NCBI GenBank assembly: GCA_012523135.1
Contig: JAAYJD010000023.1
Span: 1 to 35,994 of the forward strand
Length of the DNA stretch: 35,994 nucleotides
DNA from: Clostridiaceae bacterium
GTDB taxonomy: Bacteria > Bacillota > Clostridia > Saccharofermentanales > UBA5734
Reading direction: 5' to 3'
The position numbers and the translations under genes are program-made. Positions 1 to 25,366 of the stretch are shown piece after piece. The notes beneath the pieces were generated by a model that was not told the origin of the DNA, did no database searches, and saw only the letters and a program-made list of their open reading frames with translations. Positions within the stretch are counted from its first letter, which is position 1. Each line of letters begins with the position of its first letter.

Positions 1-1926
1 AATGGCTTCAACTACCAGACGTTTCTCTACAACCCGAATGGCGTCCCGGCCAAGTTCGGGGAGGAGCTGGGCAGCTTTCAGGACGTGATGGTCTATAATT
101 GCCTGCTCGATATGTATGCCAACCGGGTCAATCTGGAGATCAACGCCGAGGTTGCCGTCGACCTGTTCCTGAAGAACCGGGTCAAGGTCAAGCTGTACAC
201 CAACAAGGAAGATAACGCCGACGGGCCTAAGGGCAAATTCCTCTGCTCGGTCGCTCCGACAAAAATCGAGCAGGGCATCGCCGAAGGGATCGATGTCACG
301 ATCGACGGCGGCTGGCTCAAGCCGGACGGCATGCACTTCAACGGCGCTTTTACCGTCGTGTCGGACGAGGTTTCAACCTCGGGTCCGCTGGCGTTCACCG
401 ACATGGTGGTGCCGGCCAACAAGAAAACGATCAACGGGCTGGACGCGGCAGGCGGACAGCTGGCCGCGGCGGAACTGGACAAGCCGGTCAACGTCGATTT
501 CCAGGGCTTCACGATGGAGATCCGGGCCATCGACCTCGGCTACAGGCCCCGCGCCAGCGAAGTGCCGGGCCAGGGCTCCGTCTGGATGGTCCTGATGGGC
601 TCGACCCTGCTGTCGGAAAACATCCCGCTTTCGACAGAGACGACCGACAACCTGATCATCGAGTGCCCCAACCAGCTCGGCCTGCCCGTCGTCATCTACG
701 AGCAGTCCCAGTCCGTCCTGACGGCCAATTTCGACGGCTGTGTCGATGTCAGCGGCGTGCTCGTGCCCGAATTGACCGAGTCCGGGGCAGCGGCCAGGGC
801 CGGGCGGCGCAACGCCTCGCTCGGGCCGGTCTTCGTCAGTTCGCCGGTCTCAAGCTCCGGCGATGGCCTGGTCGAATTCGATACCGACACGCTGCTGCTC
901 GGGTTCCTGGGCGGGCTGAATACCCTCGATATCGACGCGGTCACCCGTTTCGGCTACGACATGAACAACAACCGCTGCTACTTCGCGGTCGGCCTCCTGC
1001 CCGCCTCCGACGACGGCGCGATCAACTTCGGCGCCGGCGACGTCGAGGATTTCACCGGTATGGTCGTCTACAACATGGTGATGGGCCGGGACGAGCAGAA
1101 CCGTTTCGCCTTCCCGGACGACCCCGGCCAGATCGCCGGCTACGTGGAGAACCTGCCCGTGCACACGGCGCCGGACACCTTCTTCGGCGCCGGCATCAAG
1201 GGGCTGCTCCGGATCTCCGATTTCTGCGAAATCCGAGACCTGTATTTCGGCTTTGGCAGCGGCCCGGTCGTCGATGCCAGCGGCGGCCTTTGGCTGCCGC
1301 TCGATGTCCCCGGCATGATCGCCGGCAATGGGTTCAAGAAAGTCGGTTCGGTCGCGATCACCTACAACCACCCGGAGCGCTACTTCTCGTTCAGCATGAC
1401 GATCGACGACATAGACATCGTGGTGGCCAAGGTCGGCGGCAGCATCGGCTTCGAGTTCAGCCCGCACCTGTTCGGTGTCTACATCGGCTACCCCGAGACA
1501 CTGGCCGGCAACATCTCCATTTTCCGGGTCGGCGTGGGCCTCGGGTTCCGGGTCGACACCGAAGGCGAATCACTCATCAAGGCCAAAATTGAATTTGGTG
1601 TCGAAAAAGATCTAACGATCCTGATCGTCTACATCCGCGGCTACCTCTACGCCGGCGCCGACGGGGCCTACTACTTCGGCGGCGAAGGCGGCGACCGCTT
1701 CGTGCTCGAGCTCTACCTGAAAGGCGGCATCGAAGGCGGCATCATCGTCAGCGGCAACCGCTACAACATCATCGGCTTCTACCTGGACGCCCGAGGCCGG
1801 CTGGAATCCAGGGCCAACGACGCCTGGCTGCTCTACTGCTCCTGCGAGGTTTCCTACAGCCTGGACCTCTGGCTGTTCTCGGTCGAAGGATCCATCTCTG
1901 CCTCCTTTGACACGACGATCGGCTGA
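1..1926 (+). CDS. large beta-rich protein of unknown family (5' end outside window)
   Basis: The reading frame is open from the first base of the window to the TGA at 1924-1926, so this is the C-terminal part (at least 641 residues) of a larger protein; the true start lies upstream. I do not recognise the family. The sequence is rich in Gly and in alternating hydrophobic/polar residues, especially the last 250 residues, which suggests many beta strands (a barrel, solenoid or fibre-like fold). No transmembrane helix, sorting signal or catalytic motif is apparent in the visible part. Cysteines are few. It converges on the Fpg-like gene with only five bases between stop codons and no visible terminator. 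The call as a real gene rests on length, codon use like its neighbours and the absence of a better frame. A phage-like or surface-structural role is possible but not supported. Confidence 0.75.
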   Translation, partial: NGFNYQTFLYNPNGVPAKFGEELGSFQDVMVYNCLLDMYANRVNLEINAEVAVDLFLKNRVKVKLYTNKEDNADGPKGKFLCSVAPTKIEQGIAEGIDVTIDGGWLKPDGMHFNGAFTVVSDEVSTSGPLAFTDMVVPANKKTINGLDAAGGQLAAAELDKPVNVDFQGFTMEIRAIDLGYRPRASEVPGQGSVWMVLMGSTLLSENIPLSTETTDNLIIECPNQLGLPVVIYEQSQSVLTANFDGCVDVSGVLVPELTESGAAARAGRRNASLGPVFVSSPVSSSGDGLVEFDTDTLLLGFLGGLNTLDIDAVTRFGYDMNNNRCYFAVGLLPASDDGAINFGAGDVEDFTGMVVYNMVMGRDEQNRFAFPDDPGQIAGYVENLPVHTAPDTFFGAGIKGLLRISDFCEIRDLYFGFGSGPVVDASGGLWLPLDVPGMIAGNGFKKVGSVAITYNHPERYFSFSMTIDDIDIVVAKVGGSIGFEFSPHLFGVYIGYPETLAGNISIFRVGVGLGFRVDTEGESLIKAKIEFGVEKDLTILIVYIRGYLYAGADGAYYFGGEGGDRFVLELYLKGGIEGGIIVSGNRYNIIGFYLDARGRLESRANDAWLLYCSCEVSYSLDLWLFSVEGSISASFDTTIG

Positions 1927-2792: not shown

Positions 2793-4238
2793 TCAAAAAA
2801 TCTCCACGCGATGTTCCTGACTTGTTATAACATGGAAGGACAGCGCCCAGGTGACGCGGCCAGCCGGTGCGAAACGCAATTCAGAACAGGCGACCCGCCG
2901 CCTGTCTGCCGCCGGCACCGAAACGAACAATGCTGTGCAGCCGTCAGCCCGCCCGATCGCATTGCCGTTGCGGCCGCGTCGGGGTGGATCACCCGGGTTG
3001 GCGTCATGTACGGACAGGACCCCTGCAGGCAAATCCGGTTCGAGAATATAGGCCAGTTGGGTGAAGCAGCGCGGCCAGTCTGAACCATCGTCTGGGAAAC
3101 GGCCCTCCGGCAAGGTTTCCCGCGTTGTGTCCAGAACGGTCATGACATGCGTCTGGCCCGAGACCGGGTGGACCAGGTCATAGGTCTGGCCAGACTGGGG
3201 ATCGGCCAGCTGCGGACCCGGAAAAAATGTGGGCAGCGGCTCCAAAATGAGTTCCAGGGTTCGAATCCTGGGTTTTCGCTTACCCGGCCAGGCAAATGAT
3301 GCCCGCAAAAACATCCAGCCGGACGGGTCGCTGCAGCCGTAATGGAGCCGCGCGGCCTCGGCCTCGGCGCTGTTGGCCGCATCCTCCCCCAGGCCAGGCA
3401 ACCAGACGACGGAACAGGAGCCGCTTTCCGGCAGGAGCGTTCCGTTCAGTTCGGCGCGCACCCGAACCGCCGCGTGGAGCGGGTTCTCGGCCTCCATCTG
3501 TTCCCGCAGCGCCCGTGATGGTTTCGGGCGGTCCTGCGCCGTCTCCCATTTGGCGCGATAGGCCCCGATCCGTTCCGCGTCCGCCTCAAGACACACGTCG
3601 ACGACCAGCCCGGCCCGGCACAGGTAAAGGGACGGGACACGCCAGTCCTGACCGTCCCAGGCAAACCGCTTGTCGACAGCCACTTCCCTGCCGGGTCGTT
3701 CGCGGGTTTCCTGACCGAAAAAGCTGTCGAACGTGACCTGCCAAGTTGGTTTACGCTGAGTCTTTGGCTGGGGAAAACGAAGTGACTGCGCGTCGAAGGC
3801 GTCCTGCAGCGTCCTGACATATCGGTATGGCTCGGGCATGGGATCGAGCGACCAGGTCTGCCGGATGGTATCCAGAACGGCCTGCTGCTCCGGGACGACC
3901 GCCGCTTCGGCAACCGCGTCAACCCAGCGCGCTTCATCCCAGTCCGGGATTTGCTCGAGGATCGTGGCGCTGTGGCTGGCCAGGACCAGGCGCAAAAAAT
4001 CACGGAAAGTACGTGCCAGCAAACGCACATACGGCGGACCCGCCCGGGACGGACTGACGGCGAAAACCATCCCGCCATGCCCGCGCACAAAACAGAAATG
4101 GATCCCGTCACTGCCGGCCCAGCCGATCACGCGCGCGCCTCTGGGCGTACAAAAATACCCGCCAGTCGTGCTGCCCGTCCCCAGACCGATCCAGGATAAA
4201 TCCAAATTCAAAGTGCAAAACTGCCGGTATGCTGACAT
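2793..4238 (-). CDS. conserved hypothetical protein, 481 aa
   Basis: I do not recognise a named domain. The protein looks soluble, with no signal peptide or membrane segment. The N-terminal 100 residues carry motifs (GYFCTPRGA, then GSDGIHFCFVRG and MVFAVSP) that I associate with an unnamed clostridial family. The C-terminal half is rich in beta strands and Pro, and includes a stretch of short conserved Trp/Pro segments. The ATG at 4238 has a GAGG site six to seven bases upstream and lies 12 bases after the stop of the mtlD-like gene; the Fpg-like gene follows after 30 bases, so all three are probably cotranscribed. No catalytic signature was seen. The function is unknown; the context does not show whether it belongs to sugar metabolism or to the Fpg-like protein. 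Confidence 0.8.
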   Translation of the reverse strand: MSAYRQFCTLNLDLSWIGLGTGSTTGGYFCTPRGARVIGWAGSDGIHFCFVRGHGGMVFAVSPSRAGPPYVRLLARTFRDFLRLVLASHSATILEQIPDWDEARWVDAVAEAAVVPEQQAVLDTIRQTWSLDPMPEPYRYVRTLQDAFDAQSLRFPQPKTQRKPTWQVTFDSFFGQETRERPGREVAVDKRFAWDGQDWRVPSLYLCRAGLVVDVCLEADAERIGAYRAKWETAQDRPKPSRALREQMEAENPLHAAVRVRAELNGTLLPESGSCSVVWLPGLGEDAANSAEAEAARLHYGCSDPSGWMFLRASFAWPGKRKPRIRTLELILEPLPTFFPGPQLADPQSGQTYDLVHPVSGQTHVMTVLDTTRETLPEGRFPDDGSDWPRCFTQLAYILEPDLPAGVLSVHDANPGDPPRRGRNGNAIGRADGCTALFVSVPAADRRRVACSELRFAPAGRVTWALSFHVITSQEHRVEIF

Positions 4239-4250
4239 GGGCGGCCTCGC

Positions 4251-5465
4251 TCAGACGACGTCGGGTGCGCTGTCTGCCTGCAGCTGCGCGGCCAGGCGGC
4301 GCAGCTCGCCCAGCGGCCGGCCGGCCGCCAGCAACTGGTAAAACCGGATCGCCGTCTCCGCGAGCGGATCGCCGGCCGGCAATTGCGCTATGTCGCTGAG
4401 CGCCTGCCTGGCCAATTCGGCCGACTGCGGCTGGTTTTGTTCGCCGATCAGCCGGTAGAGCGCACCGGCGATGCCCACCGCGATCCAGACCGGTGAAACC
4501 CCGGCCTGTTGGCAGAACAAGGCGGCACCGACCAGGCGGTCCTCCGGCATCAGCTTGCGCTTCGGGTCAGCCCCGACACGCTCGCAGGTGTCCTTGAGGG
4601 CGGCGTTGCCGAAACGGCGCAGCAGATCGTCGCCGTGTTCGAGCAGTGGTTCGAGCGGCATTTGGTAGGCGCGGGCCAGCGCCCGGGCACTGGACAGCAT
4701 CGCCCGCTGCACGATCGCCAGGATCTCCGCCTGGTCGATCGCCTCGCTGATCGTTGCCAGCGACGCATACGCGCCCAGATAGGCGCAGATCGCATGCGCC
4801 ATGTTATGCAGGTACAGCTTGCGCTTGATGTAATAGGCGAACGGCGCAAACGGCACCAGGCGGGGGATGGGGGGAATCTCACCCTTGAAAGCGGCTTGGT
4901 CGACCGGCAAAAAGCCATAGCGTTCGACGCAGACCCTCAGCGGGTCGCCATCTTGCATGGCGGGCGTCTGGATCGGCACCATGCGCCCGATCGACGTCTC
5001 AACCAGGCCGACCTGGCGGTCAAAAGCCGGGTGATCCGCCGGATCGAGCTCCGCTTTGAGGTGGCGGGCCAGCACCTGGTCCGCGTGCATCAGGTTCTCG
5101 CAGATCAGGATGTTCAGCGGCGTGTCTCCCGCTGCCAGGCGCCGGGCCAGGCCGGCCGCAAGCGCAGGTGCGATCCGGCCGAGATTATGAGCGCCGACCG
5201 CCGTCGCCGCCAGGTCCGCCCCGGCGACCGCCTCAGCCACCGCGGCACTGTCACGCGCGTCAATGGCGCTGACATGACAGATAAGTTGGTCTTCATGGCC
5301 CTCGCTGGAGACGATACGCACCGGGTAGCGCCCGGCGCGGTTGAGACTTTCGACCAGGCTGGCCGCGACATCGATAAAGGTGACGTGGTAGCCCGCCTGG
5401 CTCAGGAGGGCGCCGATAAACCCGCGCCCGATGTTGCCGGCACCAAAAATGACCGCTTGTTTCAT
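4251..5465 (-). CDS. mtlD: mannitol-1-phosphate 5-dehydrogenase-like protein
   Basis: A 404-residue member of the polyol-specific long-chain dehydrogenase family. The NAD-binding motif FGAGNIGRGFIG sits at residues 7-18, and the catalytic signature K-x4-N-x2-H is formed by Lys216, Asn221 and His224. Family members interconvert mannitol-1-phosphate and fructose-6-phosphate with NAD in the cytoplasm. The length is slightly above the usual 380. There is no mannitol PTS gene beside it; instead its ATG overlaps the stop of the FGGY kinase by four bases (ATGA), so it is translationally coupled to the kinase. This suggests it acts on the sugar phosphate or polyol phosphate of the same pathway, and the real substrate may not be mannitol-1-phosphate. 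Family assignment is firm, substrate is inferred. Confidence 0.85.
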   Translation of the reverse strand: MKQAVIFGAGNIGRGFIGALLSQAGYHVTFIDVAASLVESLNRAGRYPVRIVSSEGHEDQLICHVSAIDARDSAAVAEAVAGADLAATAVGAHNLGRIAPALAAGLARRLAAGDTPLNILICENLMHADQVLARHLKAELDPADHPAFDRQVGLVETSIGRMVPIQTPAMQDGDPLRVCVERYGFLPVDQAAFKGEIPPIPRLVPFAPFAYYIKRKLYLHNMAHAICAYLGAYASLATISEAIDQAEILAIVQRAMLSSARALARAYQMPLEPLLEHGDDLLRRFGNAALKDTCERVGADPKRKLMPEDRLVGAALFCQQAGVSPVWIAVGIAGALYRLIGEQNQPQSAELARQALSDIAQLPAGDPLAETAIRFYQLLAAGRPLGELRRLAAQLQADSAPDVV

Positions 5466-6994
5466 GAGATCCTCCCCTGCGCCTCTTTGTCCTGCTGCAG
5501 CTCCTGCATGAGCGGATACAGCTTCTTGTAGGTTGAAAACCGCGCCTGGTATTTTGCGTACTGCTGCGGATCGGGTTCATAAACGCGCTTTTTCCTGACC
5601 AGGCCGGCGACCGCCTCCTGGTGCGAGCGGAAGGCACCGCACGCGGTTCCGGCCAGGATGGCCACGCCCAGCGTGCCGGCCTCCGATACGAGCAGACTGG
5701 TGACCGGTTTGCCCATCATGTCGGCTTTTAGCTGCAGGAACGTTTCAGAACGGGCCATGCCGCCGACAGCCGCCAGCTCATCGATGGCGACGCCGGCGCC
5801 GGCCAGTCTTTCGACGTTGATCATGATCTCGAACGTGATGCCCTCCAGGATACCCCGGATCATCTCCTCAGGTCTTGTGTCGATCGTCAGGCCGGCCATC
5901 AGGCCCTGCGCGCCCGCATCCATGTAGGGGGTCGCGGCACCGGCGAAATGCGGCAGGACCAGGAGCGGCGACGGGCCCGGCGTTTGGAGCGCACGCTCGA
6001 TCATCAGCGTGTAGGCGCTGATCCCGAGCTGATCCGCTTCCTGCCGGAAGGGCAGGCCCAGGCGGTCGCGGTACCACTTGAGCACGCTGCCGCTGGTAAA
6101 GGTGAACGCGTAGGTGACATACAGACCAGGCAGCACATGCGGCACGGAGGCGAAGTGATTGCCGGCCATGGCCGGGGTCAAGATCGGCTGGGCGAAAGCC
6201 GGCGTGATGCACTCAGTCGAACCCAGGCCGTCAACCGCCAGTCCCGGCCGGATGACGCCGGCACCGAGCGCGGCGCACGCCTGGTCGTGGCCGCCGGCCA
6301 CCAGCAGGACATCCCCAGGCAGGCCGAGCGTCCCGGCCAGGCTGCCCGCAAGCTGCCCGAGCACGGTTCCAGACGGCACCGGCTCAGCGAATTTATCCCC
6401 GTCGACACCGGCTGCGTCCAGCAAGTCCTGCGACCAGTCTTTTTGCCGGATGTCAAAGGCCATGGTGCGGGCTGCCAGCGAGTAGTCGGTGGCCGGCCGG
6501 GCGCCGAGCCGAAATAAAATGAAATCGGCGAACAGCAGGAATTTCCAGGTCCGGCGGTATATCTCCGGCCGGTTTTCTTTCAGCCACATGATTTTGCACA
6601 GGCTGTACATCGGCTGGACGTAGGTGCCGGCAATCGCCAGCACCCTGGCATCGCCCGGATCAGTCCTGAGCCTGGCCGCTTCCGCCTGGCCGCGGCTGTC
6701 GATATAAAGCATGCTGTTGCCTAACACGCGGCCGTCCTGGTCGATGGCCACGACGGCTTCGCCGAAGGAGGACACCCCGATCGCGCGGATCTTGTCGCCG
6801 CGATACCCGGCCATGACCTGCCGGATCACGGCCTGGACCGCTGCCCAGACGGCTTCCGGGTCCAGCTCCTCCCAACCGGGGCGGGGTGAGTGCAGGGGAT
6901 ATTCCCGGCCGGCCTGGGCCAGGACCGCGCCGTCAACGGCGACGATGGTCGCCTTGCAGCCGGATGTGCCGATGTCAAGCCCCAGGATACACAT
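5462..6994 (-). CDS. FGGY-family carbohydrate kinase (xylulokinase-like)
   Basis: A 510-residue sugar kinase of the FGGY/actin-fold superfamily. The N-terminal phosphate-binding loop DIGTSGCKA is at residues 7-15. The likely catalytic base is Asp237 in the motif GGHDQ, and the second ATPase domain holds a GGMARSE segment of the kind that contacts the adenosine. Family members phosphorylate pentoses, hexoses, ketoses or polyols with ATP. GGHDQ differs from typical gluconokinase and glycerol kinase motifs, so substrate cannot be read from sequence. The ATG has no good Shine-Dalgarno sequence and lies nine bases after the aldolase stop, suggesting translational coupling. The context (isomerase, aldolase) suggests a ketose as substrate, giving a ketose phosphate for the aldolase. 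Confidence 0.85.
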   Translation of the reverse strand: MCILGLDIGTSGCKATIVAVDGAVLAQAGREYPLHSPRPGWEELDPEAVWAAVQAVIRQVMAGYRGDKIRAIGVSSFGEAVVAIDQDGRVLGNSMLYIDSRGQAEAARLRTDPGDARVLAIAGTYVQPMYSLCKIMWLKENRPEIYRRTWKFLLFADFILFRLGARPATDYSLAARTMAFDIRQKDWSQDLLDAAGVDGDKFAEPVPSGTVLGQLAGSLAGTLGLPGDVLLVAGGHDQACAALGAGVIRPGLAVDGLGSTECITPAFAQPILTPAMAGNHFASVPHVLPGLYVTYAFTFTSGSVLKWYRDRLGLPFRQEADQLGISAYTLMIERALQTPGPSPLLVLPHFAGAATPYMDAGAQGLMAGLTIDTRPEEMIRGILEGITFEIMINVERLAGAGVAIDELAAVGGMARSETFLQLKADMMGKPVTSLLVSEAGTLGVAILAGTACGAFRSHQEAVAGLVRKKRVYEPDPQQYAKYQARFSTYKKLYPLMQELQQDKEAQGRIS

Positions 6995-7003
6995 GGACGC
7001 GGC

Positions 7004-8026
7004 CTAGCGGGCCGGCCGCGCCGGCCGGTACCATTGCGCCAGGTATCCGCCGACGATGCGCCTCATCGCCTGGAATACGACCGTTTGCCGGTAAACGGTC
7101 GTGAAGAAGTCGATCGACAGGCCGCGGTCCTCGCGGCAGGCCGGTCCCAGCAAGCCGGCCGCCTTGAGTTCGGCGACCGCCTGGCTGCCCGCGGCCTGGT
7201 CGGCATGCGCCACCAGTTCCCGGAACAAAACAGGCGACGCGTCACGCTCGAGCGCCGTCCAAAGATTGACTTTGCACACGCCGTCATCGGCCAGGCCGGC
7301 GATCTGGCCGGCCGGCACAGACGAGGCGCCATGCAGGACGATGCGCGGCCCGACCTTTTCCCGGATACGGCGGGCGTGGTCGCCGTGGTAGGTCAGGTTG
7401 CCCGCGGCTGCCCGGTGTTCGGTGCCCAGGTTGGCGACGATCAGGTCGACACCCGTTCCGTCAAGGTATGCCTGGGCCTTTTCAGCCGTCGTCAGCTCGC
7501 AGCGGATATCACCGGTCGCGTCGACGATCTCGTCACATGCCCCCTCGATGACAATCTTGCTGCCCTCCCGGATGACGAATTGGCGGGTCCGGCGGATGTT
7601 TTCGTCCAGCGGCACGCTGGAGGCGTCGAACATGATCGACGAAAATGCGTTCATGTCCCACTGCAGCAGAGCCTCGTCCGCATCGAACTGGGTGTGGTCG
7701 AGATGGATCAGGATCCTCAGCTGGCTGTAGGGCGAATCCTCGCCGGCCAGGACGTGCAAATCGGCGAGGAACAGCTTGAGGCCGATGTCCCAGCGGCGGG
7801 TCTGGGTGTAGTTGGCTGACTGGCTGCGATGCGCGTAGCGGTTGGTCACAGCCAGGCTGATCGGCAGGTCCGGTTCGCCAATGGCCGCGCCGTGCGCCAG
7901 AACCGCGTCCAGGATGGCTTCGGTCGTGGTCAGATTCTCCGTGCAGAAGCAGGGCAGCACCCGTTTTCTGGCTGCGGCTTCCCGGTAGATGGCCAGGACA
8001 GCCTGGCGGTCAGTGATAATAGGCAT
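7004..8026 (-). CDS. class II (zinc) ketose-bisphosphate aldolase family protein
   Basis: A 340-residue protein of the fructose/tagatose-bisphosphate class II aldolase family. Visible active-site features are the HLDH motif with Asp110 and His111, a Glu-containing EGACDE segment at 161-166, His204 in GTEH, His232 in LHGASS, and KVN at 252-254. His111, His204 and His232 match the three zinc ligands, and Asp110 the catalytic acid/base. The usual Gly after the second zinc histidine is Arg here, and the region is divergent from standard FbaA, so the substrate is probably not fructose-1,6-bisphosphate. An AAGGAG site overlaps the stop region of the isomerase gene upstream. Expected reaction: retro-aldol cleavage of a ketose phosphate to dihydroxyacetone phosphate and an aldehyde. 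Confidence 0.85.
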   Translation of the reverse strand: MPIITDRQAVLAIYREAAARKRVLPCFCTENLTTTEAILDAVLAHGAAIGEPDLPISLAVTNRYAHRSQSANYTQTRRWDIGLKLFLADLHVLAGEDSPYSQLRILIHLDHTQFDADEALLQWDMNAFSSIMFDASSVPLDENIRRTRQFVIREGSKIVIEGACDEIVDATGDIRCELTTAEKAQAYLDGTGVDLIVANLGTEHRAAAGNLTYHGDHARRIREKVGPRIVLHGASSVPAGQIAGLADDGVCKVNLWTALERDASPVLFRELVAHADQAAGSQAVAELKAAGLLGPACREDRGLSIDFFTTVYRQTVVFQAMRRIVGGYLAQWYRPARPAR

Positions 8027-8036
8027 AGCAGACTCC

Positions 8037-9443
8037 TTATTCGAGCTCGAACAGCTCGTACTTGAGGTAGGTGCGGAAAGCTTCTTCGAGAATCGCCTTC
8101 ATCCGGCCGACCCCGACTGTCGTGTGGTGGCGGAAACCCTGGCGGCCGATCCGGAGCAGGATCTGCTGCAGGTTCGCGATCCGGGCCACGCCGCCGCAGC
8201 CAAAAAAGCCGTCCGGGATCACATCTTCGGTGAACGCGCCTTCGCCGATGTAGAACGTCAGGCGGCCGTCTTCGGTCTTGCAGTTGGAAAAGGTCATCGG
8301 GAAAGCCCGGATGCGCCCTTCGTCGCTGCCCCAGCCCTGATCCGGCTGGTTCTTGGAAAACATTTTGTGATCCGTCACGGTCCCGCGGCAGGCCATCAGG
8401 GATTCGGCGATGGGGCCGCAGTGGAAGAGGATGACTTTGTCCTCGTCCTCACCGTAGTTGTTGTTCCAGTCGACGCAGGCGGTCGGCTGTTCAGAAGCCA
8501 GCTTCATCGCCTGCATGCTGATCGCCGAGCACAGGTCGGTCTCGCACGAGGCGACGATGCCGCGATCGTTCAATTCACCGAGCAGCACACAGGGGGCGAT
8601 GCCGTACCAGGACTGCAGTTCTTCCCAGCAGCGCAGCGACAGGGCATCGAGCTGGTACTCGGCAATATAGTCGTCGAGCACCACCGACAGCTTGGCCAGG
8701 CTGAGCAGTTTGGCAGGCGGGACATGGGACACATCCGTATAGTCCCGGAGCCGTTCGATTTTGGCCGTGACCGCCGCGTGATCGTCCTGCAGCTGGCCGA
8801 TCCGGTGCACGACGGCGGACAGGTCGAAGGACTCCACCGTGATGCCGTGTGCCTGCAGCGTGATCTCGTCGAAGCGCACCGTCTTGAAGGCGGTGGTGCG
8901 GGCGCCGAAGCAGCCGATCGTCAGCCGGCGCATGCCGCGCACCACGCGGCAGACCGCGGCAAAGTCGTGCAACTGGCATCTGAAGGCGGCAGACAGCGGG
9001 TGGACGACATGCGGCGGGAAGACGGTAAACGGGATGCGGTACTGGTGGAAAACATCTTCGATGCTGAACTTGCCGCAGAACGCGTCGCGACGGAAAGCAA
9101 AATCCATCTTGTCCAGCTCGTCCGGATAAGCCTGGATCAGGATCGGCACGCCGGCGTCGCGCAGGGCCGCCACCGCACCGTTCTCATCGCTGAAATTGGG
9201 CATGCAGAGGATGACCCCGTCAAAACGGCCGCGCAGCACCTGGAGCCAGTCGGCGTAGCGGCGGCCGTCGGCGCGTGTTTCGACACCGCCAAACGGCGTC
9301 GCCTGCTCGTCGAGCAGCAGGGCGTCGTAACCGCAAGCCGTAACGGCCTGGACCATCTCCGCCCGGGCGGCGGTGATCAGGGTCTCCGGCATGAAGCCGC
9401 GATTACCAAAATAGAGGGCGAAAGTCATTTTTCTTTTTTCCAT
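8037..9443 (-). CDS. L-fucose/L-arabinose isomerase-like protein
   Basis: A 468-residue member of the FucI/AraA-like isomerase superfamily: an N-terminal Rossmann-like half and a C-terminal metal-binding half. Candidate manganese ligands are Glu301 (SCETD), Asp325 (VDWNN) and His341 (FHCG), which match the Glu/Asp/His pattern of the family. Such enzymes interconvert an aldose with its ketose. The protein is shorter than E. coli FucI (about 590) and is closer in size to AraA and to the many uncharacterised FucI-like proteins. It is the first gene of the minus-strand sugar cluster, with a GAGG site before the ATG; a second in-frame ATG lies five codons in. There is no transporter or regulator in the cluster. 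Superfamily assignment is good; substrate unknown. Confidence 0.82.
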   Translation of the reverse strand: MEKRKMTFALYFGNRGFMPETLITAARAEMVQAVTACGYDALLLDEQATPFGGVETRADGRRYADWLQVLRGRFDGVILCMPNFSDENGAVAALRDAGVPILIQAYPDELDKMDFAFRRDAFCGKFSIEDVFHQYRIPFTVFPPHVVHPLSAAFRCQLHDFAAVCRVVRGMRRLTIGCFGARTTAFKTVRFDEITLQAHGITVESFDLSAVVHRIGQLQDDHAAVTAKIERLRDYTDVSHVPPAKLLSLAKLSVVLDDYIAEYQLDALSLRCWEELQSWYGIAPCVLLGELNDRGIVASCETDLCSAISMQAMKLASEQPTACVDWNNNYGEDEDKVILFHCGPIAESLMACRGTVTDHKMFSKNQPDQGWGSDEGRIRAFPMTFSNCKTEDGRLTFYIGEGAFTEDVIPDGFFGCGGVARIANLQQILLRIGRQGFRHHTTVGVGRMKAILEEAFRTYLKYELFELE

Positions 9444-10366: not shown

Positions 10367-12202
10367 CTATTCGTAGCTGACTGTGCGCAGGTGGCGGGGC
10401 AGCGAGCCGACCACGATCAGGCGCTTGTCCTTGTCGTAGAGAAAATAGATGCGCAGCAGATGCCCGGTCTTGTCCCCGATGCGCAAGTGGCGGTCTAGCA
10501 GGCTTTCGACCGGCTTGCCCTTGTGCCCGGCATAGTACTTGATCTTGTAGTCGGTCGGATACATGTCGACGGAGACACCTTTGACCGGGGCGACATCGAA
10601 ACCCCGCCCGTATTTTTGCGCGCAGAGCAGGTGCTCGTCGTCTTCGCCGATCACGCCAAGCAGCAGGTCACGGTATTCGCAGGCCAAAAACTCCAGGGCA
10701 TCGCACAGCAGCGGCAGATTGACCTCGTCCGGGGCGACATCTGTCAGTTCGCGCAGGGCCCGCGTGTGCAGCAGCAGCTTGCCGGCAAAGAACCGCCTGA
10801 CCCAGTCGGGCAGCTCGTCCAGGCAGGCGGGCCGGTCGGCCAGGGTCTCCAGGCGCTGGATACGCGCGTCTTTTTTGCCAAGCTCAGCCAGGTAGTGCTG
10901 TTCCAGCTCCTCTTTTTCCTGCCGCAGCGCCGCCGCGTCCTCCGCCTGGCTCTTGATCTGCTCTGTGAGCTTTTTGATTTTTGTCTCTTTCAGGTCGAAC
11001 ATCGCCTGCAGCCGGCGCATGTCGTCGGTATGGCGCAGCAGCAGGGCCTGCTCGCGCTCCTCGCCGGCCCGCAGGATCTCTTCCTTGCTGTGGTGGATGT
11101 CCAGAACCTGCTTGCGCTCGATGGCCTTGGCTTCGGGCAGGAACACGACGGACTTGAAAACCACCGGCTTCTGCTTCGGGTAATCCTGCAGCCAGGCATC
11201 CAGCCGGACCCGCTCACCGGCCGGATTGTGCCGGATCTGGTCGTACGGGACATGCATGTGATCCTGGCCGAAGGCGAGCGGTTCGACCACCAGGGCTTCG
11301 CCGGGGTACAACGCATAGCCGCAGGTTTTCTGGAAGGCCGCCTGCTGCGCGGCCGGAACGAAGAAAAATTGGCCATAGCCCATCTTGTCGTGCGCCAGCC
11401 GGTCCAGATCGAGCGCGGCCGGCGGTTCGGGGTCCGGGATGATCGGCGGCGGCAGGATGCCGCTTGCCGGCAGCCGGCTGAGCCTGGCGATGAGTTCGTC
11501 GGGTGTGGGCAGCTGTTCCGGTCCGGGCAACTCCGGCAAAGCTTCGGCGACGATGACAGCGGGCAGCATCCGGTCCGGATGTTTCAGCCACGCCTTCAGG
11601 TTGTGCAGGACGACCGCCCGGTCCAGCGTGATCGGCTCGTAGCGGATCGGCCAGCCGTGCTCCAGACCGAGGCGCGGGTTGCGGACCAGCTGGCCGACCA
11701 AGGCCAGGCGATAGACTTCGCAGGGCGCCGTTGTGCCCTGCGGTTCCGACACCAGGGTGCGAAAGCCGCAGATTACGCGGCCGTTCAGCAGGCGGAAAGC
11801 GACATGGGTTTCAAACAGCCGACCGGCCACAGGCGGCCGGTCCTGGTTTTTGGCGCCCGGATTTGGGCCCAGGTCGGGCTCTGTCAGCTGCATGGCCCAG
11901 ATCTGCTCCCGGGACAGCCAGATCACGTCCAGCGAATAACCCGTGTCGAGACGAAAAGAATGGAAACGGTTAAGGCTGACCGTCTCCGCCGCATCCGGCT
12001 CAGGCCAGTCCAGTTCGGGCGGGATGCCGAACTGGCAAAAGCGCTTGCGCAGCCAGCTGAACGTCTCCAGCACCGCACAGACGAGGGCCGCGGCAGGGTC
12101 TGCCCGGCCCGTCTCAGCCAACAGCTGGTACGACGGGTAGATGACATTGCGCAGCAGCGGCAAAGGCTGGTGGCGGTGTGGCATCTGCTGTGACGCGGTC
12201 AT
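10367..12202 (-). CDS. 611-aa protein: unknown N-terminal domain, coiled coil, RelE-like C-terminal segment
   Basis: I know of no characterised homologue. Residues 1-225 form a globular domain with motifs such as QLTEPDLG and PVAGRLFETH. A Pro-rich linker (about 225-262) and a second globular region follow. Residues about 372-455 are charged and heptad-like and should form a coiled coil. The last 65 residues resemble a RelE/ParE-type fold, with a basic, strand-rich pattern ending LIVVGSLPRHL. No signal peptide or membrane segment is seen, so it should be cytoplasmic. The ATG at 12202 has a GGAG/AGGT-rich region upstream and the gene follows the C_GCAxxG_C_C gene after 48 bases, so the two probably share a transcript. 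A toxin or nucleic-acid-binding role is possible from the C-terminus only; this is inference. I recall related hypotheticals in Clostridia. Confidence 0.8.
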   Translation of the reverse strand: MTASQQMPHRHQPLPLLRNVIYPSYQLLAETGRADPAAALVCAVLETFSWLRKRFCQFGIPPELDWPEPDAAETVSLNRFHSFRLDTGYSLDVIWLSREQIWAMQLTEPDLGPNPGAKNQDRPPVAGRLFETHVAFRLLNGRVICGFRTLVSEPQGTTAPCEVYRLALVGQLVRNPRLGLEHGWPIRYEPITLDRAVVLHNLKAWLKHPDRMLPAVIVAEALPELPGPEQLPTPDELIARLSRLPASGILPPPIIPDPEPPAALDLDRLAHDKMGYGQFFFVPAAQQAAFQKTCGYALYPGEALVVEPLAFGQDHMHVPYDQIRHNPAGERVRLDAWLQDYPKQKPVVFKSVVFLPEAKAIERKQVLDIHHSKEEILRAGEEREQALLLRHTDDMRRLQAMFDLKETKIKKLTEQIKSQAEDAAALRQEKEELEQHYLAELGKKDARIQRLETLADRPACLDELPDWVRRFFAGKLLLHTRALRELTDVAPDEVNLPLLCDALEFLACEYRDLLLGVIGEDDEHLLCAQKYGRGFDVAPVKGVSVDMYPTDYKIKYYAGHKGKPVESLLDRHLRIGDKTGHLLRIYFLYDKDKRLIVVGSLPRHLRTVSYE

Positions 12203-24346: not shown

Positions 24347-25366
24347 TCAGTCCAGACTTTCCATCGCCAAATGGAGATGGAATTGCCATTGGTCATAAGG
24401 CTTGATGATCTGGTCGTAGCCGGCCAGCATTTCCTGCTCCCGGCCCCTGATCCGGCTGGTGCTCGGTTCGATGCCGAGGGCATAGTCGCCTGATTTCATC
24501 GATTTCCACTGGACCAGCCAGGGCAGTTCGCTGCGCAGCCAGGTCAAAGAAGCGGCCATGCGCAGGTCTGGACGCACCAGGCGGACGGTTTCCTCCGGTT
24601 TGCTGCCCGGCAGCGGCTGGTGGAAGAAGACCTGTTCCGGGCAGCCGTCAACCGGTTCGCTAATCTGGTCATGTTCGGCCAGGCCGCGTGCCGCCTCATC
24701 GGTGCGGGGAATCACCTCGCCGGGCGCGAACTGCAGCTGCAGTTCCGGGCTCAGGAAAGGATAGCCGAAATTGAAATGGTAGAGGAGAAACAGCGGTTCG
24801 GGCTCCGCCGCTTCATTTTGCACGGTATCCTCCCAGCGGATTGACGAGCCGAAAAGCGGCAGGATCAGTTTGCGTTTCAACAGCAGGTTATGCCCGAAAA
24901 GCGCGGATTCACGCATCTGGCCGGAAAGGGTCACGGTCCCCTGCTCCGGATCCAGCTGGACGCTCACCTGCTCGGCGGGCATGGCGCCGATCTGGCCGTG
25001 AATCGGGTGATAGGTGTTGTTGTACTCACAATCAGGTCCGGTGTTTCTAAGGCCGCAAGTCGCCAGCATGCCGCCTGGCCAGCTGGCTGCGAACGTGTCG
25101 CAGCCTGGCACCACGCGGCCGCTCAGCAGGCCGTTTTTGCTGCCAAAGCCGATGTTGACCCCCTTGAAGCGGAGCTCGTACAAGTCGAGCGCCCGGCTCT
25201 CCAGAAAGAGCGCCTGCAAGCCGCCAGCTGTCTGGACCTCGATCAGGCGCATCTGGTCGCCGCCGCCCTCGCTCAGCTGCAGGCGGCGAACGCTGTACAG
25301 CTGGTCAGATGATCCCGTGTAGCGTTTCTGGTCCCGGTAGCCGAGCGGCAGAACAGACCGGCTCAT
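24347..25366 (-). CDS. DUF4432 family aldose 1-epimerase-like protein
   Basis: A 339-residue protein of the galactose mutarotase-like superfamily, DUF4432 branch. Family features are a CGLRNTGP segment, the HPIHGQIGAMPAE motif around residues 118-130, and a beta-sandwich pattern with LYHFNFGYPFLSPE. These proteins bind sugars or sugar phosphates; the reaction is not established for this branch. The ATG lies one base after the cyclophilin stop, so the two genes are cotranslated. No transporter or kinase beside it hints at a particular sugar. Confidence 0.85.
   Translation of the reverse strand: MSRSVLPLGYRDQKRYTGSSDQLYSVRRLQLSEGGGDQMRLIEVQTAGGLQALFLESRALDLYELRFKGVNIGFGSKNGLLSGRVVPGCDTFAASWPGGMLATCGLRNTGPDCEYNNTYHPIHGQIGAMPAEQVSVQLDPEQGTVTLSGQMRESALFGHNLLLKRKLILPLFGSSIRWEDTVQNEAAEPEPLFLLYHFNFGYPFLSPELQLQFAPGEVIPRTDEAARGLAEHDQISEPVDGCPEQVFFHQPLPGSKPEETVRLVRPDLRMAASLTWLRSELPWLVQWKSMKSGDYALGIEPSTSRIRGREQEMLAGYDQIIKPYDQWQFHLHLAMESLD

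Follow-up and report, generated by a model that had tools for sequence, protein, structure and literature searches.

Which sugar is degraded, and by what route, by four adjacent genes whose products belong to an isomerase, an aldolase, a sugar kinase and a polyol dehydrogenase family? In the window (the whole stretch of DNA analysed, 35,994 nucleotides), all four open reading frames are intact and lie on the minus strand. Gene 1 of the putative operon, ISO (8037..9443; 468 aa), encodes an aldose-ketose isomerase of the AraA/FucI superfamily with the metal residues Glu301, Asp325, His341, and His440. ALD (7004..8026; 340 aa) encodes a class II aldolase of the FBA/TBPA fold that lacks the DPR motif and is a predicted ketose-1-phosphate aldolase, KIN (5462..6994; 510 aa) a XylB-like FGGY sugar kinase with the catalytic residue Asp237 and predicted to phosphorylate O1 of the ketose, and MTLD (4251..5465; 404 aa) an NAD enzyme resembling mannitol-1-phosphate dehydrogenase, which keeps Lys216, Asn221, and the following His (KxxxxNxxH). 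The genes are partly coupled, as the earlier note had it: the gaps are 10 (ISO/ALD), 9 (ALD/KIN), and −4 bases (KIN/MTLD), the KIN-MTLD overlap being ATGA, and stretches resembling ribosome binding sites (GGAG or GGGGAGG) precede ALD and MTLD. Most likely, the four genes form one operon. Promoter-like sites 5′ of ISO were no more frequent than in shuffled sequence. With Pfam, ISO matched the C-domain PF02952 (Fucose_iso_C), ALD only PF01116 (F_bP_aldolase), KIN only FGGY_N and FGGY_C, and MTLD Mannitol_dh and Mannitol_dh_C; none of the four proteins attained the cut-off of a named equivalog in NCBIfam. By these matches, the generic family labels of the four genes hold good, whereas the NCBIfam scores leave more specific names undecided. 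A 481-aa ORF (2793-4238, minus strand) located 12 bases behind MTLD was considered as a fifth operon gene but left out, as it has no Pfam match and its relatives are confined to the genus (73% identical in genome G004 and 42% in G003, the latter containing just distant ISO paralogs). A tRNA-like hairpin suspected at 3253-3272 was not confirmed. Two other ORFs of the window, at 10367-12202 (minus strand, 611 aa) and 85-1926 (plus strand, 613 aa), also have no Pfam match.

Relatives of ISO were sought in 84,980 species genomes and found at 37 loci (48–91% identity) from five named phyla (Clostridia/Bacillota, Bacteroidota, Lentisphaerota, Verrucomicrobiota, and Abditibacteriota), the carriers including uncultured Clostridia, Lentisphaerota, and Bacteroidota of rumen, gut, environmental, or reactor samples. 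Neighbours were counted on maps showing the four proteins and recurrent neighbours at these 37 loci. KIN lay directly downstream of ISO at 32 of them (one locus ends just past ISO) and a class II aldolase within the cluster at 24; of the 13 loci where a linked aldolase was missing, some are truncated, L029, L047, L051, and L056 not obviously so. MTLD was found at 8 loci, a GH36 glycosidase at 7, and a DUF4432 gene (aldose-1-epimerase-like; nearest PDB entry 3ty1) at 15. The four-gene order of the window is repeated in L024 and, up to the contig end that truncates MTLD, in L022; elsewhere in the same taxonomic order and family, the arrangement varies but the content is kept (ISO-KIN-DUF4432-ALD in G030; ALD near ISO-KIN in G006). 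Chance does not account for the grouping, as these genes are found side by side in other families and phyla as well. The core consists of ISO, KIN, and a class II aldolase; MTLD is accessory. Thus, the comparison of neighbourhoods suggested in the earlier note revealed a conserved set, although what recurs as a unit is the three-gene core rather than all four genes. That note had also remarked on the absence of a transporter or regulator, and neither adjoins the four genes of the window, but an AraC-type regulator is encoded upstream at 20 of the 37 loci (17 of these are of the PocR type). No naming of the cluster was found in full-text literature on tagatose or L-ribulose 1-phosphate pathways, D-fuculose catabolism, or DUF4432. 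A DUF4432 gene of the window (24347-25366, minus strand) was tried as the missing mutarotase partner and left out, as its neighbours are unrelated and its product is 28–33% identical to the DUF4432 proteins of the clusters. At two loci (L045:9715-11844 and L048:6273-8402), a divergent MtlD-like dehydrogenase and a DUF4432 (aldose-1-epimerase-like) domain are fused in a single gene, which suggests that both steps are coupled.

ALD keeps Asp110, the zinc histidines His111, His204, and His232, as well as Glu161 and Asn254. The divergence near the zinc site that had been noticed earlier is real: where VEAELG is the usual motif, ALD reads IEGACDE, with Ala163 in place of the second Glu, and Trp256 is a further departure. 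The AlphaFold model of ALD (pLDDT 87) matched structures of class II FBA, TBPA, and SqiA with Z of about 27–30; the best match among PDB sequences was SqiA (8q58, E 3e-15), and the best NCBIfam score, 81.3 bits versus a cut-off of 343 (TIGR01859), does not reach the FBP/TBP equivalog. ALD was ruled out as the glycolytic FBA of the genome, which encodes a separate canonical FBA on another contig (G000:C360, 348 bits). In the PF01116 alignment and PDB sequences, DPR near the C-terminus was present in 10 of 10 1,6-bisphosphate aldolases compared (GatY, KbaY, FbaA, 2fjk, 1rv8, 4to8, and four FBAs of the window's genome and its relatives, these four being the DPR-bearing ones). It was absent from all 27 cluster aldolases, ALD included, from YdjI, from SqiA (8q57/8q58), and from an aldolase encoded outside the cluster in another genome of the same genus (L090 in G004). 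The arginine of DPR corresponds to R331 of E. coli FBA, presumably the binder of the C6 phosphate, and SqiA and YdjI are two class II aldolases known for ketose 1-phosphates. Because the cluster aldolases share the lack of DPR with these two enzymes, and the bisphosphate aldolases possess it, ALD is read as part of a ketose-1-phosphate route. SqiA lacks DPR despite the fact that its substrate bears a 6-sulfonate, so loss of the motif is compatible with a charged group at C6. As an annotation rule, DPR could separate ketose-1-phosphate from bisphosphate aldolases within PF01116.

A maximum-likelihood tree resolves the cluster aldolases into four or more lineages, interspersed with GatY, KbaY, FbaA, and housekeeping enzymes. 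Placed on the ISO tree, the aldolase type changes about 12 times (minimum 6; shuffled mean 21.9). Aldolase lineages have replaced one another in the same operon role, which makes the conserved cluster a clean natural case of non-orthologous displacement. The placing of different aldolases in one operon slot also argues that DHAP-type aldol cleavage of the product of KIN is real.

From the computed data (gene order, conservation, folds, catalytic residues, the loss of DPR, and the repeated aldolase replacement), we infer each enzymatic step, C1 as the position of phosphorylation, and the kind of sugar. It is likely that the operon converts an aldose via a ketose and a ketose 1-phosphate to DHAP and an unphosphorylated aldehyde. 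To judge by its fold and metal residues, ISO would convert the aldose to the ketose by metal-assisted enediol isomerisation. KIN, a kinase by family, would form the ketose 1-phosphate, the C1 position being suggested solely by the aldolase. ALD, a zinc-dependent class II enzyme that would have no site for a second (C6) phosphate, is predicted from its fold, its kept catalytic residues, and the DPR loss to release DHAP and the free aldehyde. DHAP would then enter glycolysis, with MTLD catalysing a side step. The earlier note had derived a route to DHAP and an aldehyde from the gene set, and the conserved aldolase slot speaks for it together with the same folds and residues.

The affiliation of KIN counts against phosphorylation at C1, as its closest families, xylulokinase and AI-2 kinase, phosphorylate C5. 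Its xylulokinase score (314 bits) lies below the cut-off of TIGR01312 (380), and that of MTLD for mannitol-1-phosphate 5-dehydrogenase (267 bits) below the cut-off of NF002652 (356), the catalytic K, N, and H being kept. The two scores would fit a scheme in which KIN feeds the pentose phosphate pathway with a ketopentose 5-phosphate, MTLD links this product reversibly to a polyol phosphate, and ALD catalyses an unrelated reaction. Such a scheme appears unlikely, since the third gene that keeps returning beside those of ISO and KIN encodes a class II aldolase; its recruitment from four or more lineages would be hard to understand if it had nothing to do with these two enzymes. With the ketose-1-phosphate route, MTLD would most simply be a polyol/ketose oxidoreductase, which may work in one direction or the other. 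The polyol-phosphate branch of the earlier note is not supported because the phosphate would sit at C1; in mannitol 1-phosphate and fructose 6-phosphate, it is located at the far end.

The earlier note could not match the gene combination to any known pathway; its layout does, however, match that of sulfo-EMP2, in which a PF02952 isomerase (SqvD), a kinase (SqiK), and a PF01116 aldolase (SqiA) lead to cleavage of a ketose 1-phosphate into DHAP and an aldehyde (PMC9594981). SqiA and ALD, whose activity is a predicted one, share both the Pfam family and the lack of DPR. The kinases differ, SqiK being a PfkA-type enzyme (PF00365) and KIN an FGGY enzyme, and so do the neighbours, which are GH31 and DUF4867 proteins in sulfo-EMP2 and GH36 or GH2 glycosidases and DUF4432 proteins in the present clusters. 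The operon might even degrade sulfoquinovose itself, via sulfofructose and sulfofructose 1-phosphate to DHAP and sulfolactaldehyde, with an FGGY kinase replacing SqiK; sulfoquinovose isomerase (NF048012) is the only NCBIfam match of ISO, and SqiA is the top PDB sequence match of ALD. We consider this very unlikely. The score of ISO is 78.7 bits versus a cut-off of 700, and since apiose-type paralogs score equally high or higher (77–119 bits), the match marks no more than the superfamily. Furthermore, the glycosidases that recur belong to GH36 and GH2, and among the proteins inspected and 25 of the 132 neighbour families there was no SqvB-like DUF4867 protein (PF16161), no GH31 enzyme or sulfoquinovosidase, and no sulfolactaldehyde enzyme.

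The L-fucose/D-arabinose pathway proceeds through FucI, FucK (an FGGY kinase acting at C1), and FucA to DHAP and an aldehyde. It shares with the operon the isomerase superfamily, the FGGY kinase, and a DHAP-yielding aldolase, but FucA belongs to PF00596 and ALD to PF01116 only. E. coli YdjH/YdjI (octuluronate kinase and 1-phosphate aldolase) provides another parallel, YdjI being a PF01116 enzyme devoid of DPR and annotated for a ketose 1-phosphate; the ydj cluster serves another sugar, however, and the cluster shown contains no PF02952 isomerase. The operon thus resembles sulfo-EMP2 and FucI-FucK-FucA in its working but is a member of neither: not of the former because isomerase and kinase differ from those of that pathway, and not of the latter because the aldolase is of a different family. 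The chances are evenly balanced that it represents a new catabolic pathway, combining a FucI/AraA-type isomerase, an FGGY C1-kinase, and an FBA-type ketose-1-phosphate aldolase, that has drawn its aldolase from four or more lineages and is spread over at least five phyla.

Searches of ISO against PDB sequences, by phmmer or with a profile, gave no match; only fold comparison did. The ISO model (pLDDT 92) matched L-arabinose isomerases at Z 30–32 (30.5–32.2, over 438–447 residues) and L-fucose (FucI)/D-arabinose isomerases at Z 28–29, the fold matches spanning about 430–447 residues and unrelated folds beginning at Z 11. Glu301, Asp325, His341, and His440 align with conserved residues of FucI and AraA. 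ISO had no Pfam match to the N-terminal AraA domain (PF02610), and its identity to FucI is 17% (468 versus 591 aa). The label “FucI-like” given earlier therefore names the correct superfamily, but the fold places L-arabinose isomerases slightly above FucI, and the nearest relatives that can be assigned by context lie in apiose-type clusters. These relatives form a side family, 35–37% identical to ISO, whose genes lie beside those of a split transketolase and an FGGY kinase, in one cluster also adjoining apiosidase-like PF13204 proteins. Because paralogs of this identity occur in transketolase/apiosidase clusters, ISO is a sister of a presumed apiose-pathway isomerase, with an aldolase downstream in place of the transketolase.

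The transketolase pair of one side-family cluster is 72.5% identical at the DNA level to a pair found in 629 E. coli genomes, which fits the aptAB pair of an apiose cluster studied by growth tests, in which its carriers grew on D-apiose (PMC13001218). A D-apiose-related route for the operon, drawn from these relatives by their context (one of them next to two PF13204 proteins), is nevertheless highly improbable, since AptA/AptB transketolase takes the place of the aldolase there and no two-part transketolase lies beside the four genes of the window, the kinases differ (GlpK-like there, XylB-like here), and retro-aldol cleavage of D-apulose 1-phosphate would, on chemical grounds, give formaldehyde, which is not useful. 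The clusters at L068:1602-9174 (in G012, with two apiosidase-like proteins) and L081:7181-11978, both comprising the split transketolase, an FGGY kinase, and a 35–37% identical ISO paralog, probably serve to degrade D-apiose; their carriers are uncultured Clostridia and a Sodalis plasmid. A further locus, L080:6008-11523 (G056), has genes for an FGGY kinase, a DUF4867 protein (SqvB family), an isomerase similar to ISO, and a two-part transketolase in a row; it resembles a variant of a sulfo-TK or apiose cluster in which the kinase is of the FGGY type.

As for the sugar entering the proposed ketose-1-phosphate route, the glycosidases offer a hint. Six of the seven GH36 loci scored 400–477 bits against the model of β-L-arabinopyranosidase (cut-off 1100) and L049 134 bits, compared with 102 bits for an annotated α-galactosidase from Pediococcus; the cluster GH36 proteins read DAGW where the latter has DDGW. 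In a tree of GH36 subfamily I, β-L-arabinopyranosidases stand apart from α-galactosidases (PMC10688797). The GH2 neighbours (L023, L042, and L058) scored highest, below cut-off, against the GalA/GalB models of β-galactosidase. Because of these GH36 and GH2 neighbours, the sugar is probably of galacto/arabino configuration at C2–C4, that is, L-arabinose, D-fucose, or D-galactose. L-Arabinose is a tentative candidate, D-fucose and D-galactose are each doubtful, and a different sugar has a somewhat less than even chance. The fold of ISO makes L-arabinose attractive, as does the lack of AraA in 15 of the 27 cluster-bearing genomes, some of which may be incomplete. Two findings make it less so: the window's genome encodes a canonical AraA on a separate contig (C161), and an AraBAD-like operon (named by inspection) lies beside the cluster in L024. 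The presence of AraA was discarded as an arbiter of the sugar, the enzyme being encoded in the window's genome and absent from the 15 others. If the sugar were L-arabinose, the operon would encode a route from L-ribulose 1-phosphate to DHAP and glycolaldehyde, for which we know of no natural example. Galactokinase (TIGR00131), looked for as a marker of the Leloir route, gave only matches below cut-off, at best about 120–140 bits, in eight of eight genomes. Identifying the sugar would assign a function to four subgroups now carrying generic names. The window's genome contains a second isomerase cluster (L075:2550-7187; G000:C89), in which a GH2 glycosidase gene and one that probably encodes a transcriptional regulator adjoin that of a distant ISO paralog (24% identical).
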